DNA of 64,000 bases. Origin: an uncultured Bacteroidales bacterium (GTDB taxonomy: Bacteria; Bacteroidota; Bacteroidia; Bacteroidales; JAUNSR01). Location of the stretch: positions 1 to 64,000 of the forward strand of contig CAMTOJ010000013.1 of assembly GCA_947074145.1 (NCBI GenBank). The letters run 5' to 3'. The notes under the pieces were generated by a model, which saw nothing but the letters and a program-made list of their open reading frames with translations, searched no databases and was not told where the DNA came from. Shown here piece after piece: positions 11,957 through 64,000 of this stretch; within the stretch, counting starts at the first letter, position 1, and each line of letters starts with the position of its first letter. Position numbers and translations under genes: made by a program.

Positions 11957-12012
11957 TAAACTAAAAAAATACAAAACAAATAAGATTAATTAATTATTTA
12001 AATTTCAAGATT

Positions 12013-13341: not shown

Positions 13342-13365
13342 AATCCTTCATTTCAATATCTATTT

Positions 13366-13428
13366 TTGTAAGGATTCTCACTCGGTTTATTGGTCATCTA
13401 CCTTGAGAATCCTTCTTATTCTTTTTTC
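13366..13428 (+). terminator. Long-loop inverted repeat with T-rich tail, probable terminator or attenuator
   Basis: AAGGATTCTCA at 13370-13380 pairs perfectly with TGAGAATCCTT at 13404-13414, followed by CTTATTCTTTTTTC. The loop is 23 bases. It stands between the beta-helix lipoprotein and the phosphatase gene, so it may only reduce read-through. Confidence 0.6.
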
Positions 13429-13468
13429 AAGTAAAAAAACACTAAGCAATAAAAAACAATTCTATAAA

Positions 13469-14479: not shown

Positions 14480-14554
14480 AACTGTCATTATCACCAATAT
14501 AGACTTTTAAATACTATGATAAAACACATTTTAGTATATTATAGATAAGATTAT

Positions 14555-14600
14555 ATCCCGCTCATATTAGTGATTAATACAGGCGGGATTTGTTTTATTT
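14555..14600 (+). terminator. Terminator after the phosphatase gene
   Basis: ATCCCGC at 14555-14561 pairs with GCGGGAT at 14583-14589, followed by TTGTTTTATTTT. The loop is 21 bases. Confidence 0.55.
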
Positions 14601-14812
14601 TAATGTCTGACTGCTTTCTTAGGTGATCCTGACCAGGAACATCCCAGACAAAAAACTTCCGATATATCAAAACCCTCAAGTGAGGCATCGGGATCTTTTG
14701 TTATAACTTCTGCTTCTGAAGTTACATAAACATTTAATCTCTCTCCCGATTCATTTTTTACATAAAATGCGCCGATCTTGCATTGCGGACACAACATTTT
14801 TCTCATAGTCAC
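14600..14812 (-). CDS. Small zinc-ribbon-like protein
   Basis: A 70-residue protein with CPQC near the N-terminus (residues 9-12) and CLGC near the C-terminus (55-58), spaced like a small zinc ribbon that could bind one metal ion. The rest is acidic (SLEGFDISEV) with no membrane segment, so it is cytoplasmic. It lies between the phosphatase gene and the DUF4435 gene, 86 bases from the latter. I do not recognise a named family; small proteins of this kind occur in many Bacteroidales. Function unknown. Confidence 0.7.
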   Translation of the reverse strand: MTMRKMLCPQCKIGAFYVKNESGERLNVYVTSEAEVITKDPDASLEGFDISEVFCLGCSWSGSPKKAVRH

Positions 14813-48756: not shown

Positions 48757-49641
48757 TTATCTGCTTTCCCTATATTCTCTTGGAGAGATACCGGATTTAC
48801 GTTTGAAAAATTTTCCGAAAGAGGATTGATCAGAAAAATTTAATTCTGCCGATATTTGCTGAATTGATAAAGTAGATATCTCCAAAAGATTGCGGGCTTC
48901 GCTATAAAGCATATCAAAAATCATATCTGAAGCACTTTGCCCCGTGACTCTCTTTATTAATAATGTAAGGTAATGAGTCGAAAGATTAAGTTTTTCGGCA
49001 TATGTGTCTACTGTATGCCAAATTCTGAAATTAGTTACAACAAGATCGATAAAATCCTTTATGATACTTTCCTGACGAGTAAGATTTTTTTCCTCATAAA
49101 ATCCACCCTTTCCCTCTATTGCATTGCTTACGTCGATATAGAATGTGTTCAGCATACTTAGAATTAGGTCATTTCTATACTTATGTGTTTTATCATTTAT
49201 CGAGGTTGTTAAATCATCCATTCTTCGTTTTAATACACCTTTTGAATATTCAGATAGCGAAATGACAGGATTGCGGAATATCATTACTTCATATTTCATT
49301 CTTTTATAGACCATATCGGTTGAATCCATTGAATCTGTAAATTCTCGACTTACGAAAATAGCCTTGGCTCTGAAATCATGGCTACATCTGGTGAATTCAA
49401 AAAGATGAGAAGAGGAAAGTAATATAAGGGTACAATCACTCAGTTCATAATTGCAATGATTGATATTCATAGATGCATATCCATTTAAAACCAATATTGA
49501 AACAGATGCACGAAGTATGGTGCATGCACTCAGTTTATTTTTTATCATATCTTGATTGATATCACAACTGTTCACAACATTCTCCGACAAAGTGTTTCCG
49601 GTTTCGGTTTCAAATAATTCTGATAAATTCTGAATTCTCAT
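48757..49641 (-). CDS. AraC-family transcriptional regulator
   Basis: The N-terminal cupin-like sensing region (residues about 30-170) precedes two helix-turn-helix motifs (about 190-290). These are seen in YAEKLNLSTHYLTLLIKRVTG and IQQISAELNFSDQSSFGKFF followed by KRKSGISPREYR, the AraC signature. It is divergent from a TolC-HlyD-MFS efflux operon, 146 bases away, so control of that operon is the simplest role. The inducer is not predictable. Confidence 0.93.
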   Translation of the reverse strand: MRIQNLSELFETETGNTLSENVVNSCDINQDMIKNKLSACTILRASVSILVLNGYASMNINHCNYELSDCTLILLSSSHLFEFTRCSHDFRAKAIFVSREFTDSMDSTDMVYKRMKYEVMIFRNPVISLSEYSKGVLKRRMDDLTTSINDKTHKYRNDLILSMLNTFYIDVSNAIEGKGGFYEEKNLTRQESIIKDFIDLVVTNFRIWHTVDTYAEKLNLSTHYLTLLIKRVTGQSASDMIFDMLYSEARNLLEISTLSIQQISAELNFSDQSSFGKFFKRKSGISPREYRESR

Positions 49642-49787
49642 TATATTTCAGATTAAAAGACAGTGTAAAAATAACTAAAAAAATGTTCATTTAAAACCAG
49701 TTTATATATTCTTTAAACTTTTCAGACTTTCGTTTTCACCTCATCTTTGCATTAAGTTTTAGTATCTAAATTTTAAGTTCCCTAAAC

Positions 49788-51095
49788 ATGAATAAAATGA
49801 TATTGACTGCAATGACAGTTAGTCTGTTATGCAGTTCTATCTCCGTTTGTGCCAAACGAAAACTGACGATAGAACAAATGTTTGAACTGGCAGACAAAAA
49901 CAGTAAGCAGATAAAAAGTTTCACAATTGCATACGATGAATCTCTACAAAATATCAAAGTGGCAAAAAATGCTCTATTACCTGAGCTTGAAACTTCTCTT
50001 TCTGTAGGTTATTTAGGAGATGTATGGCTTGCGGATAGAGATTTTTCAAATGGCATGAATGCACATATGCCTCATTTTGGCAATAATTTTGCAATAGAAG
50101 CATCCCAGGTTTTATATGCCGGAGGAGCTATCACTGCTGCCATAACTATGGCAGAACTAAAATCACAGATTGCATATCTTGACATCGAAGCAAATCGTCA
50201 GGATGTTAGATTTTTATTGGTAGGTAATTATCTGGAGCTATATAAAATAAACAATCAACTTAAAGTTTATGATCAAAACATAGAACGCACCAAGCTCCTT
50301 CTTTCTGAAATGAGAGCCAAGGAAAACCAGGGATTGATTTTACCTAACGATATCATAAGATACGAACTACAGCTCCAGACTCTTGAGCTTGCCGTGATTC
50401 AACTTAATAACAGTAAAGAGATTATAAACAATCAACTAATTACAATTCTCGGGTTATCAAATGATGAGGAGATAGAAATTGATCATTCGGTTACTCAAAA
50501 TATGCCACTTATAAATAGTGAAGAATATTGGCAAAATATGGCCAAAGAAATTTCTCCTATCATAAAAATAGCAGAAACCTCTGTTCGGCTATCAAAGGAA
50601 AATGAAAGAATAATTAAATCGGAAAATCTTCCCTCTTTGGCACTTTTCGCAGGTGACAAACTGGATGGTCCTATTATTATTGAGGTTCCTCCTATTAACA
50701 AAAACTTAAATTATTGGTATGTCGGGGTGGGTATAAAATATAAAATATCTTCAATATATAAGACTAATAAAAAAATCTCATCTGCTCGTCTTAAGACTTA
50801 CCATTCAATAGAAGATAAACAATTCCTTGAAGATAATATACAAACCTCTGTAAATGCCGCTTTTATCAGATACGAAGAATCTTTCAGGGTTTTATCTACA
50901 AGGATAAAGAGTCTTGAACTTGCCACACAGAATTATAAAGTTGTCAATCAGCGATATCTTAATGACTTAGCTGTTCTGACTGATATGCTTGACGCCAGCA
51001 ATTCAATGCTTAATGCGGATTTACAAGTAGTTAATGCAAGAATCAACATATTATTTCATTATTATCAATTAAGGAAAAGAGTCGGTAATCTATAA
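49788..51095 (+). CDS. TolC-family outer-membrane efflux protein
   Basis: The exit duct of a tripartite pump. The signal peptide (about residues 1-23) ends in VCAKR. Two long coiled helical repeats typical of the OEP family are seen, with ALLPELETSLSVGYLGDV in the first half and SENLPSLALFAGDKL in the second, followed by a helical tail that ends in YYQLRKRVGNL. At 435 residues it is a standard length. It starts an operon with an HlyD-type adaptor 12 bases downstream and an MFS pump. A CATCTTTG near -40 (49742-49749) is one mismatch from the -7 consensus. Confidence 0.92.
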   Translation: MNKMILTAMTVSLLCSSISVCAKRKLTIEQMFELADKNSKQIKSFTIAYDESLQNIKVAKNALLPELETSLSVGYLGDVWLADRDFSNGMNAHMPHFGNNFAIEASQVLYAGGAITAAITMAELKSQIAYLDIEANRQDVRFLLVGNYLELYKINNQLKVYDQNIERTKLLLSEMRAKENQGLILPNDIIRYELQLQTLELAVIQLNNSKEIINNQLITILGLSNDEEIEIDHSVTQNMPLINSEEYWQNMAKEISPIIKIAETSVRLSKENERIIKSENLPSLALFAGDKLDGPIIIEVPPINKNLNYWYVGVGIKYKISSIYKTNKKISSARLKTYHSIEDKQFLEDNIQTSVNAAFIRYEESFRVLSTRIKSLELATQNYKVVNQRYLNDLAVLTDMLDASNSMLNADLQVVNARINILFHYYQLRKRVGNL

Positions 51096-51107
51096 ATATC
51101 AAATAAA

Positions 51108-52142
51108 ATGAATCATAAATCAAAAAAACTAATCTATAACATAGTCGCTTTGACTTCCCTTTCTTTAGCACTTATATGGATATGCTCTCGCTTCGTTCAT
51201 ATTGGAAATGTTGAATTTACCGACAATGCTCAGGTAAAACAACTTATAGTACCGGTAAATTCAAGAGTTCAGGGATTTGTATCCGGTATATATTTTGACG
51301 AGTATTCAGAAGTCAAAAAAGGTGATACATTAATGGTGATAGAAGATATAGAATATCGTGTCAGAGTTGCTCAGGCTGAGGCTGATTATCAAAATGCACT
51401 CGTTGGTAAATCTGCGATGAAGACAACGATTAATACTACTCACAATAATATACTTGTGATGGATGCAGGAGTTGATGAAGTAAAGGCACGCCTGGATAAT
51501 GCTAAATCGGAATATGACAGATACAGTAAACTTTATGAGCAGAAAGCTGTAACAAAACAACAATTTGATGCGGTTTTGACTAATTATAATGCAATGAAAG
51601 CAAGATATGAATTACAGGTTAGACAGAAGAATTCAACATCACTTGTTAAACAAGAACAGACTGAAAGACTTGACCAGACAGAAGCTGGTATAAAACTTGC
51701 TGAGGCAGCTCTTGAATTGGCTCGATTAAATCTGTCTTACACTGTTATAACTGCTCCTTGCAACGGGACAACAGGACGAAAAAATATTCGTGAAGGTCAA
51801 CTTATACAGCCCGGACAAACTATAATCGAGATAGTAGATAACAACGAAAGATGGATAGTTGCAAATTATAAGGAAAAACAGATAGCTAACATTAAAGAAG
51901 GGAATGAAGTTGAAATTGAAATAGATGCCATTCCTAATCAAACTTTCAAAGGAAAAGTAAAATCAATATCTCGTGCTACGGGTGCAAGTTTCTCGTTGAT
52001 ACCTCAAGATAATTCAGCTGGTAATTTTGTAAAGATTCAACAAAGAATTCCAATAAGAATAGAGTTTTCAAACTCTAATGATTCACAGGCAATGAAACGT
52101 CTAAGATCCGGCATGAATGTAGAATGTAAAATAATTTATTAA
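51108..52142 (+). CDS. HlyD/EmrA-type membrane fusion protein
   Basis: The periplasmic adaptor joining the MFS pump to the TolC-type duct. A single N-terminal membrane helix (about residues 9-27) anchors it. A biotinyl-lipoyl-like half (VNSRVQGFVSGIYFDEYSEV, about 45-75), a long coiled-coil hairpin (about 85-205) and a second half (NLSYTVITAPCNGTTGRKNI) with beta-barrel domain follow. The length of 344 fits EmrA. It stands 2 bases before the MFS gene. Confidence 0.94.
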   Translation: MNHKSKKLIYNIVALTSLSLALIWICSRFVHIGNVEFTDNAQVKQLIVPVNSRVQGFVSGIYFDEYSEVKKGDTLMVIEDIEYRVRVAQAEADYQNALVGKSAMKTTINTTHNNILVMDAGVDEVKARLDNAKSEYDRYSKLYEQKAVTKQQFDAVLTNYNAMKARYELQVRQKNSTSLVKQEQTERLDQTEAGIKLAEAALELARLNLSYTVITAPCNGTTGRKNIREGQLIQPGQTIIEIVDNNERWIVANYKEKQIANIKEGNEVEIEIDAIPNQTFKGKVKSISRATGASFSLIPQDNSAGNFVKIQQRIPIRIEFSNSNDSQAMKRLRSGMNVECKIIY

Positions 52143-52144
52143 TA

Positions 52145-53722
52145 ATGGATCATCATTCAGGACCCTTTTCTATCCCCGCGATACATCATTTCATTCCTGA
52201 AAAATTACGGCCGTGGGTAGTAATACTCTTCGTAATCTGTTTTCAGTTTTCAGGAGGAATATATCTTGCAGCGATAAGTGAAATGGTTGGCTCGACAGCA
52301 CTTATGCAGGAAGATATACTAATGATAGGATATGCTTCAATGGTAGGAATGTCGCTTACTTTCACGGTGATGTTCAGATTGAAATTTGCCGTAAAACCCA
52401 AAATCACTCTTCTGATCTGTTGCTCGGTTCTTATTATTTGCAATCTGATATGTATGCATTGTAGTAATATACCTCTGCTTGTGGCAACAAGTTTCATAGC
52501 GGGCATATTTCGAATGTGGGCTACATTCGAATGCAACTCCACCATACAGTTGTGGCTGACACCAAAACGAGATATGTCTATTTTCTTTTGTTATGTATAT
52601 TTACTAGTACAGGGATGTATTCAACTTTCCGGAGTTACGACTATCTATACATCGGTTTTCGCCAAGTGGGAATATATGCATCTTTTAATTATCGGAATGC
52701 TTTTGTGTGTCATGATTGCAACTCTTTTAATCTATAATAATAAAAGATTTATACGAAAGTTACCTTTATTTGGCATCGATTGGCTGGGAGGCGCAATGTG
52801 GGGTATTACGATATTATCCATAATATTTATATGTATATATGGAGAACATTATGATTGGTGGAATTCAGAGTGGATAATAATGGCATCAATATGTGGCATA
52901 CTAACATTAGCACTCAATTTGTTTAGAGCCTCTTTCATTAGACATCCTTTTATATCTCTAAAAACATGGCAATTCAAAGTTGTATGGATTACATTGTCTA
53001 TATATATAATATTTGATATTCTTATTGCCCCGGCTCATATTCTTGAACATATTTTTCAAAGTTCGATTTTAGGCTATGACGAACTAAATACACTATCTTT
53101 AAATTGGATATCAATAATCGGAATTATATCTGGAGTAATTTTTACATTCCATTTTTTCGCGATAAAAAAGGCTTCATATCAATCAATGACCGTAACATCA
53201 TTCGCATGTGTGACAATATATCTTTTAATATATTATTTTACGATAGATTATAATCTTCCTAAGGAATCGTTATATATTCCTGTATTTTGCAGAAGTTTCG
53301 GTTACGTTATACTTGCTATAACACTTATAACAGCATTGATGCGTGTACCTTTTGAATATTTCTTTCAATCAATATCAATTCAGGGGTTTGTAAGTGCAGG
53401 TATCGGCAGTGTATGTGGCAGCGCTATTATCGGAAGAGTGTTTAATATATTATTACGAAAAAACACAATGCTTTTGAGTTCAGGAATAGATAATGTTGCA
53501 ATAAGCACATTAGGAGTAAGAATGGAAGAATTATATGGATCGGTTATGCAACAGGCTGTAGTTGTAACAATAAAAGAGATATACGGATGGCTTTCTATTA
53601 TTGCTTTGACTTGTTTGCTTTATTTTCTTGTAGCTAAAACAGGAATACGACCATTATCACTTATTCATCCGTCTTTCAGAAAATTACGCAATCTGATGAA
53701 ATATCAGCTTTTTGATAGTTAG
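52145..53722 (+). CDS. MFS drug-efflux transporter, EmrB-like (DHA2 type)
   Basis: An inner-membrane, proton-driven exporter. The 525 residues show about 14 hydrophobic segments, the DHA2 arrangement. The start is 2 bases after the adaptor gene. The conserved motif A loop of MFS pumps is weak (MFRLKFAVKPK after TM2), and motif C is not clear, as is usual for Bacteroidota members. Together with the two genes before it, it forms a full tripartite pump under a divergent AraC-type regulator. Likely substrates are bile acids, fatty acids or hydrophobic drugs; this is inference. Confidence 0.9.
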   Translation: MDHHSGPFSIPAIHHFIPEKLRPWVVILFVICFQFSGGIYLAAISEMVGSTALMQEDILMIGYASMVGMSLTFTVMFRLKFAVKPKITLLICCSVLIICNLICMHCSNIPLLVATSFIAGIFRMWATFECNSTIQLWLTPKRDMSIFFCYVYLLVQGCIQLSGVTTIYTSVFAKWEYMHLLIIGMLLCVMIATLLIYNNKRFIRKLPLFGIDWLGGAMWGITILSIIFICIYGEHYDWWNSEWIIMASICGILTLALNLFRASFIRHPFISLKTWQFKVVWITLSIYIIFDILIAPAHILEHIFQSSILGYDELNTLSLNWISIIGIISGVIFTFHFFAIKKASYQSMTVTSFACVTIYLLIYYFTIDYNLPKESLYIPVFCRSFGYVILAITLITALMRVPFEYFFQSISIQGFVSAGIGSVCGSAIIGRVFNILLRKNTMLLSSGIDNVAISTLGVRMEELYGSVMQQAVVVTIKEIYGWLSIIALTCLLYFLVAKTGIRPLSLIHPSFRKLRNLMKYQLFDS

Positions 53723-53738
53723 AATTAATTATAGAATA

Positions 53739-53781
53739 GAAAAGGAGAATACCGATAACCAATATCATATTCTCCTTTTTA
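53739..53781. terminator. Bidirectional terminator after the efflux operon
   Basis: AAAAGGAGAATA (53740-53751) pairs with TATTCTCCTTTT (53768-53779). It also lies beyond the 3' end of the convergent DUF4857 gene at 53809. Confidence 0.85.
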
Positions 53782-53808
53782 CATTATACTTTATATTCTG
53801 TCAATTAT

Positions 53809-54870
53809 TTATATACCAAATCTTGGATAAACAAATTTATCAAGAGGATGGGTAAATCTTAATGATATTGAAGAAAGAAATCCCAAAAATCCTTTTCCGA
53901 TATATTCAGTCTGAGGTTCTTCATAAATTTTTATCAAAGAATAGTCCTCTGCATTCACGGCATAATAGACAACTTTATCCGGCGAAGAGATTTTAATAGT
54001 CCAATCTATCATATTTCCATATATCATCATCATATTCTTTTCGGGAATAAATTCCGGAATACCAACATTCCGGAATTTATAAGTTTTATTTTCAATGACA
54101 TAGAAATTATTTTCCGAATCGGAAGCAAATCCTAATATTTTGCGGTTCTTAAATTCCGTGATAAATACATTTTTAAGTGAGATACCTTGAGGTATATCTA
54201 TTTTTCTTACATAAGGACGTCCTATAGTCTGTTTCAGGTGGAAAAGTTGATTATTCCGGTCAAGAACAAGATAGTCTTCGTCGTAATCTTTTTTTACCGA
54301 CGGGTTGCCCGATAGATAATTTGCCGGAAAAGAAAATCCATTACCTGAAAGCATTTCTGAGAATCGTTTACTTTTTTCGATGTTAATAGTATTTGACTCT
54401 GCATCGATAAACTCTATTGAGTTGTCTGTAAAGCGAAAAACATCATCCGGAGATTCAAGCTTTACCCTCGATGACATTGACTCCATCAATTGGTAAACAC
54501 CGATGCAAGGAGCATTTATATCCTTGGGATTTATACGATAATAAAATGATTCGTTTTGTGTATCCTTAAATGTTATATGCATTCCATTTATTGTATCAGG
54601 AAATCGTTCATCTTTTAGAAGCTGACGGGCATAAAAAAAAGGATGAATACTGTCAAGTTCGCTTTGTGTATATATGTTACCATCAAGGTCCTGGTGACAC
54701 ATACCGGAGCCGGAATAAACAGATGTCGTAAAATTGTTGATTATACAACTGTAAAGGACAAATGGTGATTTATCTTTTTGTGGTGTTACGAACTTATATA
54801 ACCATGGTAATTGCCATAAACATAAAAGGATGACAGTCAGTATAAGTAATATGTTGCTGATTTTTTTCAT
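53809..54870 (-). CDS. DUF4857-domain protein, last gene of the uptake operon
   Basis: An N-terminal hydrophobic segment (residues about 5-22) anchors or exports the protein. The rest is mainly beta, with GSGMCHQDLDGNIYTQSELD (near 55) and HPFFYARQLL typical of DUF4857. A second hydrophobic stretch near the C-terminus, GFLGFLSSISLRF, may touch the membrane. It starts 20 bases after an ABC permease gene. No enzyme motif was seen. Its fixed place after ABC genes suggests an accessory part of the transporter. Confidence 0.82.
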   Translation of the reverse strand: MKKISNILLILTVILLCLWQLPWLYKFVTPQKDKSPFVLYSCIINNFTTSVYSGSGMCHQDLDGNIYTQSELDSIHPFFYARQLLKDERFPDTINGMHITFKDTQNESFYYRINPKDINAPCIGVYQLMESMSSRVKLESPDDVFRFTDNSIEFIDAESNTINIEKSKRFSEMLSGNGFSFPANYLSGNPSVKKDYDEDYLVLDRNNQLFHLKQTIGRPYVRKIDIPQGISLKNVFITEFKNRKILGFASDSENNFYVIENKTYKFRNVGIPEFIPEKNMMMIYGNMIDWTIKISSPDKVVYYAVNAEDYSLIKIYEEPQTEYIGKGFLGFLSSISLRFTHPLDKFVYPRFGI

Positions 54871-54890
54871 ACTTATTAATTATTTCATTT

Positions 54891-55562
54891 TTAATCTTGT
54901 TTTCCATCTTTGAATCTGGAGACGGAAAGGAAAACAAAAGATGTTGACAAAGCGGTATATACAAATAACAGAGGAAGAAATTTATTATATGCCTGCCCTG
55001 ATACATTGTAGAAAAATATCTTTATCAATAATATGCTTATCACAATATTCAAAATTCGCCTTCTCCATGTCGGTTCTAAGACACACCAAGAACAAAGAAG
55101 ATATGATAATAAACCGGAAAGAAACCAAACTATTGCCGTCAGAATAATATGATTGGCCAGTTGTTCAACAAGAGTAATTCTCATATTGACATAAAAACAG
55201 AGTAAAATAGTTGTAAAAAGCAGACTCAACATCAATAATCCGTATCCTGTCATACTGAGTATCATCTTGCGAGAATCACAAGGCAAATGAAGTGTCAATT
55301 TCAAACATTTACGTTGCATCTCAGGTACAAACTGTGTAATACCGAAAAGAATTCCGATTATAGGGGGAATGAACTTTATAGTATCAATAAAGAGAGCATC
55401 ACGCTGTATCATAACTTCCCAGATATGCACTGCACCCTTTAACTCTATCATTCTGTAGATATTAAATATCAAATAGATTGAAAAACCTAAAAGAACAATA
55501 GCAGAAAGAATGAATATCCATTTTGTTTTAATCCATTCTTTATAAAATATAGCTTTTATCAT
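54891..55562 (-). CDS. ABC transporter permease-like membrane protein
   Basis: 223 residues with six hydrophobic segments (about 17-38, 60-80, 105-130, 140-165, 172-188 and 193-212), starting MIKAIFYKEWIKTKW, typical of ABC-2-like permeases. The gene is 25 bases downstream of the ABC ATPase gene, which supports its role as the channel-forming partner. It has no signal peptide or periplasmic domain. The substrate and direction are unknown. Confidence 0.82.
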   Translation of the reverse strand: MIKAIFYKEWIKTKWIFILSAIVLLGFSIYLIFNIYRMIELKGAVHIWEVMIQRDALFIDTIKFIPPIIGILFGITQFVPEMQRKCLKLTLHLPCDSRKMILSMTGYGLLMLSLLFTTILLCFYVNMRITLVEQLANHIILTAIVWFLSGLLSYLLCSWCVLEPTWRRRILNIVISILLIKIFFYNVSGQAYNKFLPLLFVYTALSTSFVFLSVSRFKDGKQD

Positions 55563-55587
55563 TTTTATCTCATATTGGTTTTATATA

Positions 55588-56472
55588 TTAATATTTACCT
55601 GTCAGACCAATAAAGGCATCTTCAAGATTAAGAAATTCTGTTCGTAAATTATTATTGGGTATTTGACGTTCATGAAAATAAGATCTAATCTCCTTTTCTG
55701 GCAAAAAAGTATAAACCTCTAATTTAGACCCAATAAGCGAGGGATTATAAAAATCAGTCATATCCTCTAAACTATATCTTTCGGGTAAAGAGCATGTTAC
55801 TTTCTTGAAATTATCAAGCAGATTCTTTATTGGTAACTGACTAAGTATTTTTCCATAATCCATAATAATGCAGTCATCTATAAGTCGCTCCATATCTTGA
55901 ATAATGTGAGAAGTAAGAAAAACAGTTTTATCTTCACTTGTAGCATATTCCTTCAGGTAATCAACAAAAAGACGGCGATATCCGGGGTCAAGGCCCAATG
56001 AAAAATCATCAAGAATCAAAAGTTCGGGATCTTGTGCAAGAATAAGGCCTAATGCAACTTGAGAACGTTGTCCGCAAGACATACGAGAAATTTTTTGTTT
56101 AGGTGCAACTTTTAATCGACTCATTAATTCATAATATGCTTCCTTTTTCCATTTTGAATAAAAACGTGAGTAAAACTTTTCAATCTGTTCTATATTCATA
56201 AAATCATACTGTACATGTCCCTCTATAAGGAGTCCGATTTTTGATCTTGTGTGATGTTTCATATCTATTATATTTTCACCAAAAATGAGACACTCTCCCT
56301 CTTTAGGTTTAAGGTATCCGCTAAGTATGTTTATAGATGTAGTCTTTCCTGTTCCATTTTTACCTAATAGTCCCAGAATGCGTCCTTTTGGAACGGAGAA
56401 ATTAAGATTCTCATAAATTTTTCTTTTATTATAATAATGTGTCAGATTACGACACTCGATTATATTTTCCAT
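55588..56472 (-). CDS. ABC transporter ATP-binding protein with altered catalytic motifs
   Basis: A cytoplasmic ABC ATPase for the adjacent permease. Walker A is GLLGKNGTGKTTSINIL (near residue 38). The signature reads SCGQR instead of SGGQ. Walker B is LLILDDFSLGLDP with Asp in place of the catalytic Glu. The H-loop FLTSHIIQDM is intact. A C-terminal part of about 75 residues is like that of drug or bacitracin-type exporters. Hydrolysis may be slow with the Asp. It lies between the PepSY-type protein gene (10 bases) and the permease gene. Confidence 0.88.
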   Translation of the reverse strand: MENIIECRNLTHYYNKRKIYENLNFSVPKGRILGLLGKNGTGKTTSINILSGYLKPKEGECLIFGENIIDMKHHTRSKIGLLIEGHVQYDFMNIEQIEKFYSRFYSKWKKEAYYELMSRLKVAPKQKISRMSCGQRSQVALGLILAQDPELLILDDFSLGLDPGYRRLFVDYLKEYATSEDKTVFLTSHIIQDMERLIDDCIIMDYGKILSQLPIKNLLDNFKKVTCSLPERYSLEDMTDFYNPSLIGSKLEVYTFLPEKEIRSYFHERQIPNNNLRTEFLNLEDAFIGLTGKY

Positions 56473-56481
56473 AATAATATT

Positions 56482-57084
56482 CTATTTTGTTATCCATAAA
56501 AAGAGTATGGGTATCAGAAGACCGATAAGAAATTCAATTCCACCTCGTCCGAAAAAGCCTTTTGATCCTTTCATCATTGTAAATCCGGTTACCACAACTA
56601 TAATCATGGAAATACTAAAAATATCTGAAAAGATTGTCCACCACTTTCCGGGATTGTAATGTAACTTAATCATATCACTGACTATAGGTCGTTTGGAAAG
56701 GATCTCAATCACTGCTGTTCCTGAAAGTTGATCTATCTCAAGTATTGAACCACCTTTAATAAAAACTTTCACAAAGTCTTCTTTAGGATAATAATGTTTC
56801 GTGTAATTTGATTGAAGATCATAATATTTCAGAATATCTATTATCTCTTCTTTAGACATTTGTGTACCCATTGGATATTTATCAACCACAAATTCCTTTC
56901 TATCGACTGTATAGTGAAGATTAACTTTATCTCTGTGATTCATATATACCCCTGATATTGCATAAATTATAAGAATTCCGGAAAATACATATGATAAATC
57001 ACGATGAATAAGCCTGCTCCATTTTCTGAAAACAGAGCCATTTGTTTTTAATCCATAAGCAGTTCTGTTCTGATTTTTAATCAT
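56482..57084 (-). CDS. PepSY-associated transmembrane protein
   Basis: Residues about 16-48 (FRKWSRLIHRDLSYVFSGIL...) form the PepSY-TM first helix with its His and Arg. A periplasmic PepSY-like region covers about 55-130 (YDLQSNYTKHYYPKEDFVKV), followed by helices about 150-170 and 180-197. Such proteins are linked to iron uptake and reduction of metal complexes in the periplasm. Gene order with a TonB receptor and ABC transporter supports a metal role. No heme-binding motif was proved. Confidence 0.85.
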   Translation of the reverse strand: MIKNQNRTAYGLKTNGSVFRKWSRLIHRDLSYVFSGILIIYAISGVYMNHRDKVNLHYTVDRKEFVVDKYPMGTQMSKEEIIDILKYYDLQSNYTKHYYPKEDFVKVFIKGGSILEIDQLSGTAVIEILSKRPIVSDMIKLHYNPGKWWTIFSDIFSISMIIVVVTGFTMMKGSKGFFGRGGIEFLIGLLIPILFLWITK

Positions 57085-57099
57085 TAAATATTTATCTTA

Positions 57100-57681
57100 T
57101 TATTGGACTTCGTATTGTTTGGCTGTTAAATGGAAGAATGAAAGATAATCTTTACCATTTTTTTCTTTCTGTTCGGCTATTCTCTGACGGAACTGATCTA
57201 TTCTTGTCTGTGGAGAATTGGCGGTTTCACCTCTTGCTTTCTTTTCGGTAGTACATCCGGCTTCACTATCACCATGATTTTGGATATTCTGTTGTTTTAA
57301 AGTTTCTTCCCATTTAGTAAGATAAGCTTCATCAATTTTTTCTTCTACAAGCACTCCTTTTACCTTTACAATGCTATTCACACATTTCTGATCAAATTTT
57401 CCAAGTTCTCCCGATTCTATACGAAGAGTGTATTTATCACTACTTCCCATTAGAAATATTTTTCTACCTCCGTGTTTACATATGTGTGTGCATACACCTT
57501 CTATCTCTATTTCCTGACCAATAAGGCGTTCTCCATTTTGCATAACATCATCTATTTGAAGTATTGAAGATTTATTATCTGTAGTTTCCGTATCTGATGA
57601 ACCTTTTGTAGATGAAGAACAAGAAGACAATGAAATCATTGCTGAAAAGATTGTTACTATTAGAAATTTGATTTTTTTCAT
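57100..57681 (-). CDS. Lipoprotein with OB-fold-like domain
   Basis: The lipobox LSSC gives a signal peptide of about 20 residues. Residues about 40-130 look like an OB fold: QIDDVMQNGERLIGQEIEIEG, CTHICKHGGRKIFLMG and IVKVKGVLVEEKIDE. The C-x3-C-x-H-G-G segment could bind a metal. The C-terminal tail is charged and helical. It lies between a DUF6850 gene and the PepSY-type gene in the same operon. No enzymatic role is known to me. Confidence 0.78.
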   Translation of the reverse strand: MKKIKFLIVTIFSAMISLSSCSSSTKGSSDTETTDNKSSILQIDDVMQNGERLIGQEIEIEGVCTHICKHGGRKIFLMGSSDKYTLRIESGELGKFDQKCVNSIVKVKGVLVEEKIDEAYLTKWEETLKQQNIQNHGDSEAGCTTEKKARGETANSPQTRIDQFRQRIAEQKEKNGKDYLSFFHLTAKQYEVQ

Positions 57682-57725
57682 AAGTTTTTATTTTTAATTA
57701 TTTGTTTATTACATGTTTTTCTAAT

Positions 57726-59174
57726 TCAGAATTCAAATCCGATGGCAGTATTCAGATTTCTTGATTTTATTTCATTATTACCTAAATGATTATAATTTGT
57801 CTTTACCAACATGGCTAACTTTTCGTTAATTCTGAACAGAAGTTTGAATGCGGGATTAAAACTGAAATACCCGGATGTTCTGAATTCAAAATATCTGATA
57901 AATGGTTCTTCCCATATTACAGATCCTGATAAAGATGAAAAGGATGAAAGATTCTTATTATATTCACCTGAAACACAAAATTCAATACTGGTTATTTTAG
58001 AAATTCTCGAAGTGAAATTAAAATTCATACCGGCAATGAGATTTGTAAAATTTTGTTCCTTGACAGGAGATTTATATGTTTCTATATCATTTTCAATTCC
58101 GCAATTAAGAGCTAAAATCCATGAATAAGTTTTATGTTCTGTCCCGATAAAACCGTTTAGCTTTGCGTTATAGTTATTATGCTTATAAAAGTTCAGAGTT
58201 TCGATAAGCGGATAAACGTTATTGGCTGCATCATCGAATATATTTTCATCTCCGTTTCTTAATTTCAGATTAGCTGAAAAACTTATTCCTTTTCGATATA
58301 GATCATTTTTTTGAATTCCTGCTTCTGCAAATAATTCATTTTCTCTGACTTTTGCCATTGGTAATTCATTTAATGATGATATAATTTTTTCAAAAGTGAA
58401 ATACCTGATTCCCGCTGTAGCAAATATTATCTTATCGTTAGTCAGAGAATATAAATCAAGAGTTGCTTTCCCCTGATAACCATTATAATAATTATCATAG
58501 TTACTTCCTCTAAATCTATAATAATCAGTTCCCAAACCTGTAAAATGGAGTACGTCAGGAACTCCAAGATCATTATAAAATATTATATGATTAGTCTGTT
58601 TATACTTTAATCCTGAAACATTGATACCTATAAAAGTCTCATTAATTAAATTATAGGCAAGAGCCATATCTAAGTTTAATGAAGAGGTGATATTTCTGGG
58701 TCGTGGATCTATGTCTCGGTATTGATTTCCTGCATCATATACACCTTTAACTCCTACAATCCATCCATTTTTTCTGTATGATAATCCTCCTATGAAATGA
58801 TACTTTTTAGTTTCCATATCACCTCCAATAGAATCTGAGGTTATATAAGGATAAAGAAGTAGGTAGTCGGATGTTTCATTATATTTCACATCATATTTTT
58901 TACCCGTTGCATATAAGGCCTCTCCCCATATCTTCATATTCCCTATTCTCTTTACTGAGTTCACCTCAAAAAAACCAAAATCATAACCATTTCCGTCCTG
59001 AAAGAGAATATGTTTATTTTGTCGATTATGCGCATAGCCACCAAGAACATCGGTAACCTCTTTTTCTGATGAAAAATATCGAAGAGCAACATTCTCGAAT
59101 ATTTTCTCATCCGCTGCCTGCATAACGGTTGTTAAGAGTATAAATAATATAAGTTTTACTATCTTTTTCATCAT
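57726..59174 (-). CDS. DUF6850-family outer-membrane beta-barrel protein
   Basis: A signal peptide of about 19 residues ends in MQAAD. The 482-residue protein is a string of amphipathic beta strands with many Tyr and Asn turns (FLYP, YHFIGGLSYRKNGW, GYQGKATLDLYSL, RYFTFEK) and ends in FEF, typical of outer-membrane barrels. Its start overlaps the stop of the DUF4876 gene by 4 bases (ATGA), so translation is coupled. It likely works with the TonB receptor of this operon, for example as a second porin or surface partner; this is inferred from context. Confidence 0.83.
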   Translation of the reverse strand: MMKKIVKLILFILLTTVMQAADEKIFENVALRYFSSEKEVTDVLGGYAHNRQNKHILFQDGNGYDFGFFEVNSVKRIGNMKIWGEALYATGKKYDVKYNETSDYLLLYPYITSDSIGGDMETKKYHFIGGLSYRKNGWIVGVKGVYDAGNQYRDIDPRPRNITSSLNLDMALAYNLINETFIGINVSGLKYKQTNHIIFYNDLGVPDVLHFTGLGTDYYRFRGSNYDNYYNGYQGKATLDLYSLTNDKIIFATAGIRYFTFEKIISSLNELPMAKVRENELFAEAGIQKNDLYRKGISFSANLKLRNGDENIFDDAANNVYPLIETLNFYKHNNYNAKLNGFIGTEHKTYSWILALNCGIENDIETYKSPVKEQNFTNLIAGMNFNFTSRISKITSIEFCVSGEYNKNLSSFSSLSGSVIWEEPFIRYFEFRTSGYFSFNPAFKLLFRINEKLAMLVKTNYNHLGNNEIKSRNLNTAIGFEF

Positions 59175-60454
59175 TCTGAAACGGGAGTAAACCCGTCATA
59201 AGTTATTATTGTAGCTGGTGTTCCCATTGCATCTGTTGCTGTTCGTTGCAATTCAATAAGAGAAGGAATACATTCGGTATTAAAATCATTTGTTGAATTA
59301 TTGGTATCCTTATATACGCTTCGTCCGTCAACTGTCTTATAAAGAAATTTTCGGCGTATGCTCTTGAAATATCTGTTTGCATCTGAGTCTGTATAACCAC
59401 AATGAGTCCATCCGGCATCAATATCAGGGGGAAGGATATTCCATAATCTTTTAGTCTCCACACTACAATTCACTCCATCAACAATCCAATTGTTTGGTAA
59501 CTTATATGCACTTTTTTCCATATAGAAATTTCCGGCAGGTAAACTCATCGTATATGAATATTTATAGAAGTAATCTTTCATATATTCATCTTTTCCAATT
59601 GGGATTCGGGCTATTGCATAAGATTTAAATCCTCGGTTATGAAGAACCCAGAAACTATTGGTATAACAATACCATTTATCAAGATTTGGTACTGTTTCGC
59701 TATCTATATCCATATTTGAGGGAGAGTTAGATTCATCGTACCATTCATAATCGGCTTTACTTAGATCAAATGAATTTGGATTTGCAACACGGTGATCAAT
59801 TCCCACGTCACATAAAATGAATCCTTCACCAGGCATTACAGGATGATCTGTTCCTGAACCTGGTATTACATATAGAGCCTGTATGCTCATTGTATCTTTT
59901 CGTATATCTGGTCTATAATCATATTTTTGTGTAGAAGTGAAATCGGATTCAACAAGAGCAATTCCGTCAGCATATAAAATATGATCAGTGTTATTGAAAA
60001 TTTCTACATAACCATCTCCATAATATTGCTTACCTGTCGATCTTAATGTTCCTGTAAAAAATATTTCTCTTATTATAAAATCATTTTTTGATGCGAATAG
60101 ATAAGTTTCAATAGAGAAAGATGTCTCTTCCTTTCCTAATTTCACAGAGAAAGAACTACCTAAAAGTTGTGCTTTTACAATAATGCCTTCTACCTCATAA
60201 TTAATTATAGATTCATAATGGCAATCATAAAGACCGGGAAGGAGATTGATTTTATTACCATAATTTATATTTACAGTCTCATTTGTTGATCTGTTTACTA
60301 ACGTTAATAGGGCATTTTCTTCATTTACTAAACCTGAAATCTCGGGATATATGATGGAGATATCAGTAGTATCTTTTTCAAAGAACAAAGATTCATTATC
60401 CGAACATGCCGAGACAATGAGAATCAGGAGTATAAGTTTTAGTATATGTTTCAT
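59171..60454 (-). CDS. DUF4876-domain lipoprotein
   Basis: The lipobox VSAC (Cys near residue 17) marks a surface or periplasmic lipoprotein. An N-terminal Ig-like part (about 30-125) is followed by the DUF4876 body with GYVEIFNNTDHILYADGIAL, a lamin-tail-like or beta-sandwich motif. It is 30 bases downstream of the TonB receptor gene and overlaps the DUF6850 gene by 4 bases. In this family the partner is regularly a TonB receptor, so it probably binds ligand at the surface. The ligand is unknown. Confidence 0.85.
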   Translation of the reverse strand: MKHILKLILLILIVSACSDNESLFFEKDTTDISIIYPEISGLVNEENALLTLVNRSTNETVNINYGNKINLLPGLYDCHYESIINYEVEGIIVKAQLLGSSFSVKLGKEETSFSIETYLFASKNDFIIREIFFTGTLRSTGKQYYGDGYVEIFNNTDHILYADGIALVESDFTSTQKYDYRPDIRKDTMSIQALYVIPGSGTDHPVMPGEGFILCDVGIDHRVANPNSFDLSKADYEWYDESNSPSNMDIDSETVPNLDKWYCYTNSFWVLHNRGFKSYAIARIPIGKDEYMKDYFYKYSYTMSLPAGNFYMEKSAYKLPNNWIVDGVNCSVETKRLWNILPPDIDAGWTHCGYTDSDANRYFKSIRRKFLYKTVDGRSVYKDTNNSTNDFNTECIPSLIELQRTATDAMGTPATIITYDGFTPVSE

Positions 60455-60484
60455 TTTATTTATTGGATTTTTATTTAATCTGAT

Positions 60485-63265
60485 TTATATTTTCAAGCTC
60501 ATTTCAAAACCGAAATAGGGTGATACGTTACGTCTTATCAAGACACCATTCCTTGTAAAATCAGGTGTATAATCGAATAATCTGTTAGAAAAAAAAGAAA
60601 GCAAAAGTTTCTCTCCTATCTTCTTAGTTATCTTAAGATTAAGATAAACAGCAGGAGGTATTTTGTACTTATTAAACGATGATTCATTAATATTATAAAC
60701 AAGATATTGTAACAGATAATTATCTTCAACTGCCTTATCGTTATATGTATGCAAAAGTCCGTCTTCTACAGAAATATAGCTTTCAGGAATTCCGTTTTGA
60801 TATAATCTTTGAGTGGAAATAAACCACATGCTTTGAACAGAAGTTGAGAAAATCAATCCAAGTGAAGGAACCTGTGTATCAAGAAGAATTGATGTACTTA
60901 ATTGTTCGTTTTCACGACCATCATTCCAATTATACAATCCAACGTAATTGTCAGAAATAGATACATTATCGATTACGCTACTTATAGCATTAAACATAGG
61001 TCGGCTGTTTTGATAAGTAGATTTGAACCATGCTCCGCTAATTCTGATTGCTGTATAAATTGGTTTGATTCTTTTTATATCTAGTTCTATCTCGATGCCC
61101 TTTTTAAGTTGTTTACTTCCGTTTTCCACATACTGATATCCGTAAAGTTTTTTTGACAGTTCATAGTTAAGAGACGAAAGTTCTGGTTTAGAAGTCAATG
61201 AATTTCCATTTATTGTCGATACATCATATTTCTTGAATGTATATGGTGAATATGTATTTGAGTATCTAAATCCGGAATTAAGATTTTCTGAAAATACCGA
61301 TATCCAAAATCTGTGCCCGGCATATTCAATATCGGCTCTTATCTCGCTTTTTATGTTCCTGGCTGGCTGTAATTCATAATTAGTTGCATCCTGTTTATAA
61401 CTAATAATATTGTAACGACTATATTCCTGAGGATTAATTGTATTATAATATCCAAGTTGTATTATATCGCAATAAGAAGGATCGGGATAAAGATAATTTA
61501 GAGTTGGCATTTTAGTATTTCGGCCATAACCGGCAGAAATAGCAAACGATAATATTCTATTTTTTTCAGTCTGTGTTTCATATTTCCATCGTGCGTTGAA
61601 ACGAGGGTCTATATAAACTTTTCCACTCATTGTAAATCTTTTATCAAGACCAGGAATTGATTCTCCTCTTAACCCTGCTTCAATTTCTACGAGTTGTTTT
61701 TCAATTGCATATTTTAAATTATCCTGAATATAGAACGATTGGGTTTGAAGTCCCGGTATCGATTTATAAGTTCGTGGTCTGTTTCCCCATCCTGATGCAG
61801 TTAAAGGGCGTGAAAGATCGTAGATCTGTCCCTGTCCATAATTTTTAGTATAACTCCATTCATAGCCGGCTTTTATACTGTTTCTTTCTGTCAGGAATGA
61901 TGGTTTTAAAGTTGTATTCGCTCTTATGAATGCAGAAAACGGTTTGCCGTCTACTGTAAATTCTGACACATATTCACTAAAAATAAGATGAGCATCATAT
62001 TCCCCCGGTTCTGTGGAAGAGGGTGCTATTGCTGCACGTTGTGGCGAAACAAGTTTAGATCGCTCAAGTTTATCAAATTGACTATTTACTCCTATATTTA
62101 TATTAGTCTTTCGTATTAGTCGCGATTTATTTGAGATATCGAATCCTGAATTAATTATTAATCTACGAAAAGTTGATTTATATTTATCTATATTCCCATA
62201 GTCAAGATCCGGATCTGTTTTATAATCATCAAAAGACCCGGAAAAATCAATACCCGGTGTCCAAATAAACCTGTTTTCTCCTAAATCGGTTGAATAAGTA
62301 TATCTCAATGCGGCATTTATTCTTTTATAATTTTCAAGTCTGTTTCTTGGATCTGAACATGCATTAAGAAATCCGGTATTTAAATTAAGTATATGATTAT
62401 CGGAGTTTAATCTAAAACCTTTACCAAGTGATAAAAGAGTACTTTTTTCATCTTCTTTCCATCTTAATGTCAGTTCTGTCGCACGACGTATCTTTTTAAT
62501 ATCAATAACTCCACTTGTAAGGTTTCCATATTCAGCCGAAGGAATACCTCTAATTATAGCAACGGTTTCTATGTCATCGGTACTTATCGATCTCATATCT
62601 ACTCCTTTATTGGTAGTATTTCGTGCATTTTCTGCTGATACGCTACTATTAATTGTAGTATATTGAAGATTTGCATCCGTGATAACGGGAGCACCATCGA
62701 TAATAAATAATGTTCCGAGAGAATTTGTAGCGTAATCTGCATTATTACTTTTAGCCCCTGTTGCTGACAAAGGTCCGGTTTCACGTAATGAAATGGAGTT
62801 TACTGAGGTCATATCGGGATCTTTTGATATACCTCCGGGGAGAAGTTCCATAAGGTCATTAAAAGAGGTTGGTTGCAAGTGTTGCATTGCATCCCTCCCT
62901 ATTTTGGAAACTGATCCGAGTCCCTTTGACTCTGATGCTGTTATCACCACTTCTTTCAATCTGTTAGGTTTTGGCTCTAATTTATATTCCAGTAAATAAT
63001 CTCCGGTAATTTGTACCTCATAAACGACCGAAGAATAAGACAAATGGGTTATATATAATTTATATGTATCATTTTTAATTTTAGTCCTGGCCTCTCCGTT
63101 TTCGTCAGTAATGATTATAAAAGGAGTATTATTCTTATTGATAAAATTTATGACAGCATCCGAAACCCCTAAGCCGGAACCACTGTCTTTCAGACTGATA
63201 GATATATTCTGTGATGTTATATTATGGCAGTAAAGTATTATTAATAACAAATAGAATTTTTTCAT
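60485..63265 (-). CDS. TonB-dependent receptor, first gene of the uptake operon
   Basis: The signal peptide (about 1-18) is followed by a carboxypeptidase-regulatory-like domain (about 20-105). A plug spans about 115-270 (QPTSFNDLMELLPGGISKD, LFIIDGAPVITDANLQY, IRGIPSAEYGNLTSGVIDIK), then a long barrel to the C-terminus (YFGFEMSLKI). It begins a minus-strand operon of eight genes ending at 53809. A -7 match CAAAATTA lies at 63270-63277, very close to the start codon. Presence of PepSY and ABC partners suggests uptake of a metal or metal complex. Confidence 0.92.
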   Translation of the reverse strand: MKKFYLLLIILYCHNITSQNISISLKDSGSGLGVSDAVINFINKNNTPFIIITDENGEARTKIKNDTYKLYITHLSYSSVVYEVQITGDYLLEYKLEPKPNRLKEVVITASESKGLGSVSKIGRDAMQHLQPTSFNDLMELLPGGISKDPDMTSVNSISLRETGPLSATGAKSNNADYATNSLGTLFIIDGAPVITDANLQYTTINSSVSAENARNTTNKGVDMRSISTDDIETVAIIRGIPSAEYGNLTSGVIDIKKIRRATELTLRWKEDEKSTLLSLGKGFRLNSDNHILNLNTGFLNACSDPRNRLENYKRINAALRYTYSTDLGENRFIWTPGIDFSGSFDDYKTDPDLDYGNIDKYKSTFRRLIINSGFDISNKSRLIRKTNINIGVNSQFDKLERSKLVSPQRAAIAPSSTEPGEYDAHLIFSEYVSEFTVDGKPFSAFIRANTTLKPSFLTERNSIKAGYEWSYTKNYGQGQIYDLSRPLTASGWGNRPRTYKSIPGLQTQSFYIQDNLKYAIEKQLVEIEAGLRGESIPGLDKRFTMSGKVYIDPRFNARWKYETQTEKNRILSFAISAGYGRNTKMPTLNYLYPDPSYCDIIQLGYYNTINPQEYSRYNIISYKQDATNYELQPARNIKSEIRADIEYAGHRFWISVFSENLNSGFRYSNTYSPYTFKKYDVSTINGNSLTSKPELSSLNYELSKKLYGYQYVENGSKQLKKGIEIELDIKRIKPIYTAIRISGAWFKSTYQNSRPMFNAISSVIDNVSISDNYVGLYNWNDGRENEQLSTSILLDTQVPSLGLIFSTSVQSMWFISTQRLYQNGIPESYISVEDGLLHTYNDKAVEDNYLLQYLVYNINESSFNKYKIPPAVYLNLKITKKIGEKLLLSFFSNRLFDYTPDFTRNGVLIRRNVSPYFGFEMSLKI

Positions 63266-63370
63266 AATGCAAAATTAGATATGAAAATTTCTCCTATAAA
63301 TACCTACTAATGATTAAAATTTAAGAGATTATCAATGCGATTAGGTATTTTAGAATGATTACAGGTAAGG

Positions 63371-63378
63371 TAGTTTTG
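63371..63378 (+). promoter_or_regulatory. -7 element of the secreted-protein gene at the window end
   Basis: TAGTTTTG matches TAnnTTTG 24 bases upstream of the ATG at 63403; no TTTG at -33. Confidence 0.5.
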
Positions 63379-63402
63379 CATCAGATTTAAAACTAAATTT
63401 AT

Positions 63403-64000
63403 ATGAAAAAAACTTTACTATTTTCTTTATTAGGTACATCTATCGGCCTTTCTGCTATCGCAGAAAATAACAATGATTTTATCGCAGGGCCTAAACTTGA
63501 ATGGTTTTCTCCATTATATGTAAACAGCAATAAAGGGCAGACGACTATCAACACTCTAAAAACTAACTCAAAGGGAGAGGTATTTCAACTTGCATCTTTC
63601 GGTTCCCACTCCTCGACTTCTGTTACCGGCAATTTCCTTAACCATTCTTTCGATGGTGCTCCTTATGAAAATGGGACATCATATAATAACAATTTACTTC
63701 TAACAAAGTATAATATGAAAGGAGAAGTTAGTTGGAACATTTTCAGCAATTACGGTGATGTCTCGATTTCAGCATGTGCGCTTATTCCAACTTCGGATGG
63801 AGGTGCTATTGCAGCTCTTAAAGTTCGTCACACAAACAGTGATGAGCAATCGAGAAATATTCTTTTTTCAGTTGTTTCTCAAAACGGAAATCAAACAGAT
63901 ATAAAATGGGACTATCCGGGTAAATGGATATATCAGGGAATAATAATAAAGATTGATAATAAGGGGAATATAGTTAAAGCAAAGAAAATTGATATCGATC
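63403..64000 (+). CDS. Secreted protein, N-terminal part, cut by window edge
   Basis: The frame starts ATGAAAAAAACTTTA and stays open for 199 codons to the window end. A signal peptide of about 20 residues ends in AIAEN. The visible part has beta-strand and Asn/Ser-rich turns, such as NTLKTNSKGEVFQLASFGSH and YNMKGEVSWNIF, with the pattern KYN-x-KG-E-W recurring in later text (KIDNKGNIVKAKKI). Such repeats occur in beta-propeller surface proteins, often T9SS cargo. It is divergent from the TonB receptor operon and may share its control. Function unknown. Confidence 0.8.
   Translation, partial: MKKTLLFSLLGTSIGLSAIAENNNDFIAGPKLEWFSPLYVNSNKGQTTINTLKTNSKGEVFQLASFGSHSSTSVTGNFLNHSFDGAPYENGTSYNNNLLLTKYNMKGEVSWNIFSNYGDVSISACALIPTSDGGAIAALKVRHTNSDEQSRNILFSVVSQNGNQTDIKWDYPGKWIYQGIIIKIDNKGNIVKAKKIDID

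Follow-up and report, generated by a model that had tools for sequence, protein, structure and literature searches.

A conserved gene cluster of gut Bacteroidales previously labelled a fimbria locus is most likely a widespread iron-acquisition system

Introduction

Iron is limiting for gut bacteria during inflammation. An operon on a contig of an uncultured Bacteroidales bacterium (CAMTOJ010000013.1, assembly GCA_947074145.1; the window is its first 64,000 nucleotides) raises the question which compound is handled by a set of proteins that spans the cell envelope. An earlier note on this DNA had described an eight-gene uptake operon and had suggested iron or another metal as the ligand. Our search of the literature found no functional study of the operon. 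Here we suggest that the gene cluster is most likely a widespread iron-acquisition system of gut Bacteroidales which was previously labelled a fimbria locus.

Results

The eight minus-strand open reading frames at positions 53809–63265 were confirmed in the order claimed, and the intergenic gaps from the receptor gene to the DUF4857 gene are 30, −4, 44, 15, 9, 25, and 20 bases. The description as one envelope-spanning unit with overlaps or short gaps which includes several unknown families is thus borne out. Identical gene order is seen in Bacteroides, Phocaeicola, Alistipes, and further Bacteroidales, and this recurrence argues against a chance arrangement. In the 67 distinct loci of Bacteroidales whose sequence reaches 8.9 kb or more upstream of the DUF4857 gene, the ATPase is always present, followed by the permease (65 loci), the OB-fold lipoprotein (64), the TonB receptor and the DUF4876 lipoprotein (63 each), DUF6850 (60), and the PepSY protein (54). 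A terminator-like structure was not found at the operon end, and Rfam gave no RNA element in 49000–64000. The neighborhoods L210–L219 carry OB, PepSY, and ATPase genes with a different ABC ATPase (∼23% identity, normal LDEP) and are therefore no extension of the operon.

The unit extends past the coordinates of the note and comprises nine or more genes. The divergent ninth gene (plus strand, 63403–64000 in the window and continuing to contig position 65238) belongs to the same module, having a common promoter region and being a recurrent partner. Its translation gives a surface-type protein of 611 amino acids with a C-terminal DUF6383 domain (7.9e-7), and homologues are found in 18 distinct loci of the operon family. 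The matching locus of Bacteroides thetaiotaomicron, BT3625–BT3633, has been described in a way that suggests fimbrillin synthesis or transport (PMC10434189), and in fact a fimbrillin-like protein is the fourth gene there and in a locus of B. faecis (L028). But in many loci this slot is empty, and elsewhere it is occupied by FISUMP, GLUG, LRR, or DUF6383 proteins, whereas the remaining eight genes stay constant. As the slot is variable and fimbrillin is one type of protein among several encoded there, we reject the fimbria reading, which appears to us the least probable of those considered here.

The first three genes of the operon form its outer-membrane half. The receptor (60485–63265, 926 amino acids) has the Plug domain of TonB-dependent transporters (Pfam, 7.8e-9). 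The single receptor sequence gave no match to solved structures; with the family profile, the plug is nearest to ferric enterobactin receptors, a weak similarity. The DUF4876 lipoprotein (59171–60454, minus strand as all eight, 427 amino acids, DUF4876 2.3e-71) has an invariant lipobox cysteine and is a probable surface partner of the receptor. PDB entry 4q1z, a putative lipoprotein, is homologous over nearly its full length (E 2.4e-46); the molecule name of this entry gives no function. The DUF6850 protein (57726–59174, 482 amino acids, DUF6850 7.9e-84) probably sits in the outer membrane, and a PDB profile search yielded no solved relatives.

The next two genes appear to form a functional pair. 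The OB-fold lipoprotein (57100–57681) has no Pfam family, neither by its own sequence nor by a scan with the OB alignment above threshold, and nothing was found in the PDB profile search. The OB fold was nevertheless confirmed by an AlphaFold model (pLDDT 85.5) which matches the OB domain of AsnRS (Z 12.6, 2.0 Å over 85 residues). Conservation analysis of this protein highlights C64-x-H66-x-C68-x-H70, C100, H136, and C143. The PepSY-type inner membrane protein (56482–57084, 200 amino acids, PepSY_TM_like_2 5.1e-11) has three hydrophobic segments, estimated to be transmembrane, and three invariant histidines. These lie on both membrane faces as in FoxB-type reductases, with H27 and H50/H142 at opposite ends of TM1 and before TM2. 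On the other hand, the two PepSY domains and at least four transmembrane segments of the FoxB type are lacking, and the full PepSY_TM family (PF03929) scores 22.8 bits, below its cut-off of 28.8, with PF16357 matched instead; a dimer could supply the remaining domains and segments. The two genes also travel together, as 19 of 21 distant OB homologues adjoin a PepSY gene. Outside the Bacteroidales the pair stands by itself and is twice found near feoAB, once adjacent (L117) and once close by (L118), both in other Bacteroidota. The genome of the window organism encodes FeoB apart from the operon. PepSY_TM proteins studied so far are mostly ferrisiderophore reductases (PMC13038864).

The last three genes look like an ABC-2, export-type transporter with an accessory protein. 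The ATPase (55588–56472, ABC_tran 5.6e-23) has Walker A, signature (MSCGQ), Walker B, and H-loop. The permease (54891–55562, 223 amino acids) is assigned by gene order, about six transmembrane segments in the hydropathy plot, and a match to ABC2_membrane_2 of 13.3 bits which is below the cut-off of 27.2; no family exceeded the Pfam threshold and the PDB profile search was also empty. The DUF4857 protein (53809–54870, DUF4857 7.2e-97, model pLDDT 83) consists of an N-terminal transmembrane anchor and a beta-rich periplasmic part that is possibly propeller-like; since the propeller matches in the fold search were no better than middling (Z 7.7), we do not claim a propeller as shown. In all 21 ATPases aligned the position of the catalytic glutamate is an aspartate (LDDFS), which suggests slow or regulatory turnover. 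This replacement, together with a periplasmic protein unlike known exporter parts, would fit an ATP-driven motor of slow turnover, or an importer, that acts on the OB/PepSY pair or carries the chelate inward. We regard such a role as improbable, because the ATPase most resembles those of exporters, PmtA, DrrA, and GldA among them, and a binding-protein-dependent import permease is not present. The resemblance of this half to exporters restricts the term uptake, which the note had used for the whole operon, and it can therefore be argued solely for the outer-membrane half.

How the operon is regulated gives a hint which metal is handled. At the operon promoters we noticed a palindrome, AATACCTA-N4-TAGGTATT. 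In selected stretches of six genomes, including that of the window, the same palindrome is found ahead of genes of the published iron stimulon, namely those for flavodoxin, porin/imelysin, and hemerythrin, hmuY, and a xus-type receptor gene, and ahead of esterase genes. With a matrix built from the non-operon sites, 40 of 59 operon promoters score at least 10, compared with 1% of the shuffled sequences. The distance between motif and −7 box is fixed in 29 of 41 promoters and also on both strands in the window. There, a weak copy at 63299–63318 (minus strand, score 7.0) faces the receptor gene and a second one at 63330–63349 (plus strand, score 6.3) faces the ninth gene. Each has the canonical distance to its own TAnnTTTG (−7) box, namely TAATTTTG at 63270–63277 on the minus strand and TAGTTTTG at 63371–63378 on the plus strand, both 20 bases past TAGGTATTT. 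Finding two such copies by chance has p ∼0.0016, the better copy alone p ∼0.05. The copies are individually weak and the total motif counts in the genus of the window are not above the control, which speaks against the model set out in the Discussion. The Fur box of E. coli is reportedly not bound by the Fur protein of Porphyromonas gingivalis (PMC6613475), and a canonical Fur box was therefore not assumed. The genome of the window organism encodes three Fur-family proteins. In the literature searched we found no earlier description of this Bacteroidales iron operator.

Discussion

The promoter motif in common with iron-stimulon genes and the published induction of BT3625–33 by 37–128-fold under iron starvation (PMC10434189) place the operon in the Bacteroidales iron stimulon. 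The note had held that the lack of any metal response, together with strong induction by another nutrient, would refute its proposal; the matching locus does respond to low iron. Of "iron or another metal", iron can now be named with fair certainty, based on the operator, this induction, and the linkage of OB-PepSY to FeoAB. Thus, iron is very probably the metal, an iron system is in our view highly likely, and iron uptake is well supported. Copper or another metal could be taken up by a similar TonB and PepSY pathway, as a TonB receptor and PepSY_TM pair for copper is known from Bordetella (PMC12914433, PMC13038864) and the Cys/His motif of the OB protein would suit Cu(I). This is nonetheless very improbable, as the operator is common to flavodoxin, hmuY, and xus and iron depletion induces the matching locus.

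The main rival ligand is heme or another iron tetrapyrrole. The receptor would import heme, the OB-fold lipoprotein and the PepSY protein would hold or relay it, and the ABC-2 pair would act on them somewhat like CcmAB on the OB-fold heme chaperone CcmE. Heme is the preferred iron source of Bacteroides (PMC13142918), the OB Cys/His motif could bind it, and in P. gingivalis a DUF4876 gene ranks with HmuY and flavodoxin among the genes that respond most strongly to hemin (PMC10470040). In addition, one distant OB gene (L207) is found alongside an HmuY-like protein, TonB receptors, and flavodoxin. On the contrary, feoAB adjoins OB-PepSY without heme genes, heme is already handled by the hmu operon in these species, and the plug is closest, if weakly, to ferric enterobactin receptors. 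The OB and permease alignments gave no Pfam match to CcmB or CcmE of cytochrome c maturation system I, although a distant relationship is possible. The HmuY lipoprotein and the CobN-like HmuS families of HmuYRSTUV are absent among the eight genes of the window. We consider heme rather unlikely and prefer a ferric chelate, whose import we judge likely.

One of the closest known systems is XusABC (BT2063–2065), the xenosiderophore system of Bacteroides (PMC13142918), likewise an iron-repressed operon with TonB receptor, surface lipoprotein, and PepSY protein; a xus-type receptor has the same operator upstream. Our operon differs in having DUF4876 instead of the DUF4374 lipoprotein (no DUF4374 match in Pfam) and a PepSY protein of half the size, and adds DUF6850, the OB-fold lipoprotein, the ABC-2 pair, and DUF4857. 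BT3625–BT3633, iron- and colitis-responsive, is the same kind of locus with matching gene content and order, but is labelled fimbrillin and has a fimbrillin/FISUMP protein in the fourth slot, where the window has the divergent DUF6383 protein. PG1019–PG1022 of P. gingivalis, 20–214-fold up in low iron, likewise comprises DUF4876 and a TonB receptor, whereas its published gene list includes no OB, PepSY, ABC, or DUF4857 genes (PMC10434189).

We suggest that the two divergent promoters are derepressed when iron is scarce, in line with the operator geometry and the induction in B. thetaiotaomicron. The DUF4876 lipoprotein and exchangeable proteins of the ninth-gene type would then capture at the cell surface a ferric chelate, which most likely is a foreign siderophore, and pass it to the receptor, as we infer from XusB and XusA. 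The PepSY protein, which probably bears heme b, and the Cys/His OB-fold lipoprotein would next reduce Fe3+ in the periplasm so that the chelator releases the iron; alternatively, the pair might hold the freed Fe2+. The invariant histidines and cysteines and the conserved gene pair incline us, by a small margin, towards reduction. The Fe2+ would enter the cell via FeoB, and the ABC-2 unit with DUF4857 might clear the spent chelator, which is a tentative guess. In Bradyrhizobium a periplasmic reductase, Feo import, and periplasmic siderophore export do work together (FsrB/FeoAB/ExsFGH; PMC10760861); there the exporter is of the RND type and the genes do not share one operon, the likeness shown being one of scheme. 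As a whole, we slightly favor this model of iron-starvation-induced chelate import with periplasmic iron release. The absence of the PepSY gene from 13 of the 67 loci and the size of its product, half that of FoxB-type reductases, count against the model, and export is disfavored by the ABC half having no known siderophore-export relative and by an ATPase without the usual catalytic glutamate. A bolder and doubtful version would be a self-contained machine for reduce-and-recycle iron piracy, with exchangeable surface proteins that capture different ferric chelates, a two-part reductase, a chelator-ejecting ABC-2/propeller unit, and an iron operator. Its reductase, composed of the OB-fold lipoprotein and the half-size PepSY protein, would be new, its Asp-type ATPase slow, and FeoB would take the iron.

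Bacteroidota are not known as siderophore makers (PMC13142918). In B. thetaiotaomicron the locus belongs to those that respond strongly to iron, but its function is unassigned and its label misleading. If our model is true, DUF4876, DUF6850, DUF4857, and an unnamed OB-fold family would gain roles, the inner-membrane step left open in the Xus scheme would be addressed, and a testable operator would become available for the iron stimulon of the Bacteroidales.

Gene content and conservation of the operon

All eight genes that the earlier note had placed at 53809–63265 (TonB receptor, DUF4876, DUF6850, OB-fold lipoprotein, PepSY, ABC ATPase, permease and DUF4857) are present on the minus strand, and the overlaps and short gaps that it described are found as intergenic spacings of 30, −4, 44, 15, 9, 25 and 20 bases. 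In the operon proteins Pfam confirms the TonB plug, DUF4876, DUF6850, PepSY_TM_like_2, ABC_tran and DUF4857. No Pfam family exceeds threshold for either permease or OB protein. The OB fold is confirmed by a confident model of the lipoprotein (pLDDT 85.5), which matches the OB domain of asparaginyl-tRNA synthetase with a Z score of 12.6; this predicted likeness carries no information on function. Plus-strand genes at 49788–53722, which encode an outer membrane protein of the TolC type together with a membrane fusion protein and an MFS-like exporter, converge on the operon end and look like an EmrAB–TolC efflux operon.

An alignment search with DUF4857 yielded 157 related sites across the genome collection. 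The 80 that were kept are Bacteroidales going by their titles; they derive from Bacteroides, Phocaeicola, Mediterranea, Alistipes, Coprobacter, Barnesiella, Rikenella and uncultured relatives. Sufficient flank is available at 67 distinct loci, and each of the other seven operon genes occurs in 54 to 67 of them; the PepSY gene is the one most often absent (13/67). The operon consists of two halves, receptor–DUF4876–DUF6850 and OB–(PepSY)–ATPase–permease–DUF4857, which are divergent yet adjacent in several genomes. One related stretch, L044, has a second receptor–DUF4876–DUF6850 module (11719–14625 and the genes after it) directly behind DUF4857, suggesting that the receptor half was duplicated to serve a different ligand.

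Many loci encode an extra surface-type protein between the operon halves or at their flank: FISUMP, fimbrillin plus FISUMP, GLUG, LRR, or a protein of 580–810 residues with DUF6383 at its end. The ninth gene next to the operon is of the DUF6383-ending type, is divergent from the receptor gene, starts at 63403 and ends at contig position 65238. Its homologues are found at 18 distinct loci of the operon family; most of them are located between the two halves, divergently from the receptor, or immediately 3′ of DUF4857. The ninth gene should be counted as a component of the system.

Promoters and the link to iron

A palindrome scan revealed a recurring AATACCTA-N4-TAGGTATT in the receptor-gene promoters across the family. 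With TACCTA-N4-TAGGTA as the scoring pattern, at least 10 of the 12 positions match in 27 of 59 promoters, compared with 1.6% of shuffles; this count is to some extent circular, since the motif was chosen from the same promoters. The other genomic locations of the motif are independent evidence for the iron link. Sites with at most two mismatches number 6 in B. ihuae, 10 in P. faecium and 10 in P. vulgatus versus 2 or 3 for the control, and behind many of them lie genes for flavodoxin–DUF2023, a receptor with a gene read as xusB directly 3′ of it, porin–imelysin, TetR–ABC, hemerythrin–response regulator and an esterase (some identified by Pfam; porin, imelysin, TetR and XusB named by eye). The set matches the genes reported for the iron stimulon of Bacteroidetes (PMC10434189). 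A weight matrix built solely from the non-operon sites gives scores of at least 10 for 40 of the 59 operon promoters versus 1% of shuffles. Within the window's own genome the palindrome lies upstream of flavodoxin and the porin, and also upstream of a PepSY_TM gene and of prfC; a sister genome has it upstream of hmuY. Total palindrome counts in the window's genus are not above control. The palindrome is also found upstream of enolase in two genomes (L149 and L161) and of a peptide chain release factor 3-like gene in two (L170 and L171), which are not obvious iron genes.

The sequence TAnnTTTG is the Bacteroides −7 element. Among the 41 operon promoters considered for its spacing, it starts 21–23 bases 3′ of the palindrome in 29 and exactly 22 bases in 24 (chance ∼0.002). 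At its right end the palindrome probably overlaps the −33 element; its left half lies clear of it. The divergent promoter of the window (137 bases) harbors two weak copies with scores of 7.0 and 6.3 (p ∼0.0016 for finding two), each with precisely the canonical spacing to a TAnnTTTG box on its own strand. The operon and the ninth gene thus appear to share their regulation. Three Fur-family genes are present in the window's genome.

Locus BT3625–33 of B. thetaiotaomicron, reported to be induced 37–128-fold under iron starvation (PMC10434189), is annotated as DUF4857, hypothetical, ABC ATPase, two PepSY, fimbrillin, two DUF4876 and TonB receptor genes. Judged by order and annotation, it corresponds one to one to the nine-gene order of B. 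faecis (L028), a close relative; the literature searched gives it no tested function. In P. gingivalis the DUF4876/TonB genes PG1019–22 are up 20–214-fold (PMC10434189). Palindrome and published low-iron induction together support the earlier suggestion of a metal system, and we are confident that the metal is iron. One P. gingivalis DUF4876 gene ranks with HmuY and flavodoxin among the genes that respond most strongly to hemin (PMC10470040), and heme is the main alternative ligand. Most likely the operon imports a ferric chelate and unloads it by reduction.

Proposed roles of the operon proteins

Among solved structures, the ferric-enterobactin receptors are closest to the receptor plug, a likeness that is no more than suggestive. 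The DUF4876 homologue of solved structure, 4q1z, bears an entry name without function. By analogy with XusB on XusA, the surface lipoprotein and receptor of the xenosiderophore system of Bacteroides, DUF4876 would act as the receptor's partner at the cell surface and capture the ligand.

Within Bacteroidales the lipobox Cys of the OB protein is invariant, and C64-x-H66-x-C68-x-H70, C100, H136 and C143 are invariant or nearly so; H66 and C68 are invariant even in the distant relatives compared. Outside Bacteroidales the PepSY gene adjoins 19 of 21 strong OB homologues without the remaining operon genes. In one such locus (L117) the OB–PepSY pair stands immediately behind the genes for FeoA, FeoB and another FeoB-like protein, and in a further one (L118) it is at most ∼5 kb from FeoAB. 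The two homologues without PepSY adjoin TonB receptors, one also with an HmuY-like protein and flavodoxin. Three His of the PepSY protein are invariant; they lie at either end of the first TM segment and ahead of the second. Most PepSY_TM proteins characterized to date are periplasmic ferrisiderophore reductases whose hemes are held by His pairs (PMC13038864), and the Xus scheme assigns this reductase role to XusC (PMC13142918). The operon protein is half as large and scores under the PF03929 cut-off; thus it may work like these reductases and is at most a putative member of the family.

In one distant family (L210–L212 and L215–L219) the gene after the OB–PepSY pair encodes an unrelated ABC ATPase whose Walker B has the normal LDEP; here the pair is associated with an ABC protein independently. 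L122–L126 and weak matches represent a broader DUF4920-like lipoprotein family (Cys and GCW motif) distantly related to the OB protein; in L124 such a gene adjoins a PepSY gene.

The nearest named families of the ATPase are PmtA, DrrA and GldA. All 21 members compared have Asp at the position of the catalytic Glu, and nearly all have an MSCGQ signature. The window's ATPase (55588–56472) has both and is presumed to be a homodimer; with both sites altered in a homodimer, the sequence suggests slow turnover. The permease has about six TM segments, and DUF4857 is TM-anchored, beta-rich and, as modeled, possibly propeller-like. In Bradyrhizobium a periplasmic reductase cooperates with FeoAB and with an exporter that removes siderophore from the periplasm (PMC10760861). 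Following this precedent we tentatively propose that the ABC half might clear the spent chelator. The operon is a modified form of TonB-dependent iron acquisition and not a wholly different system.
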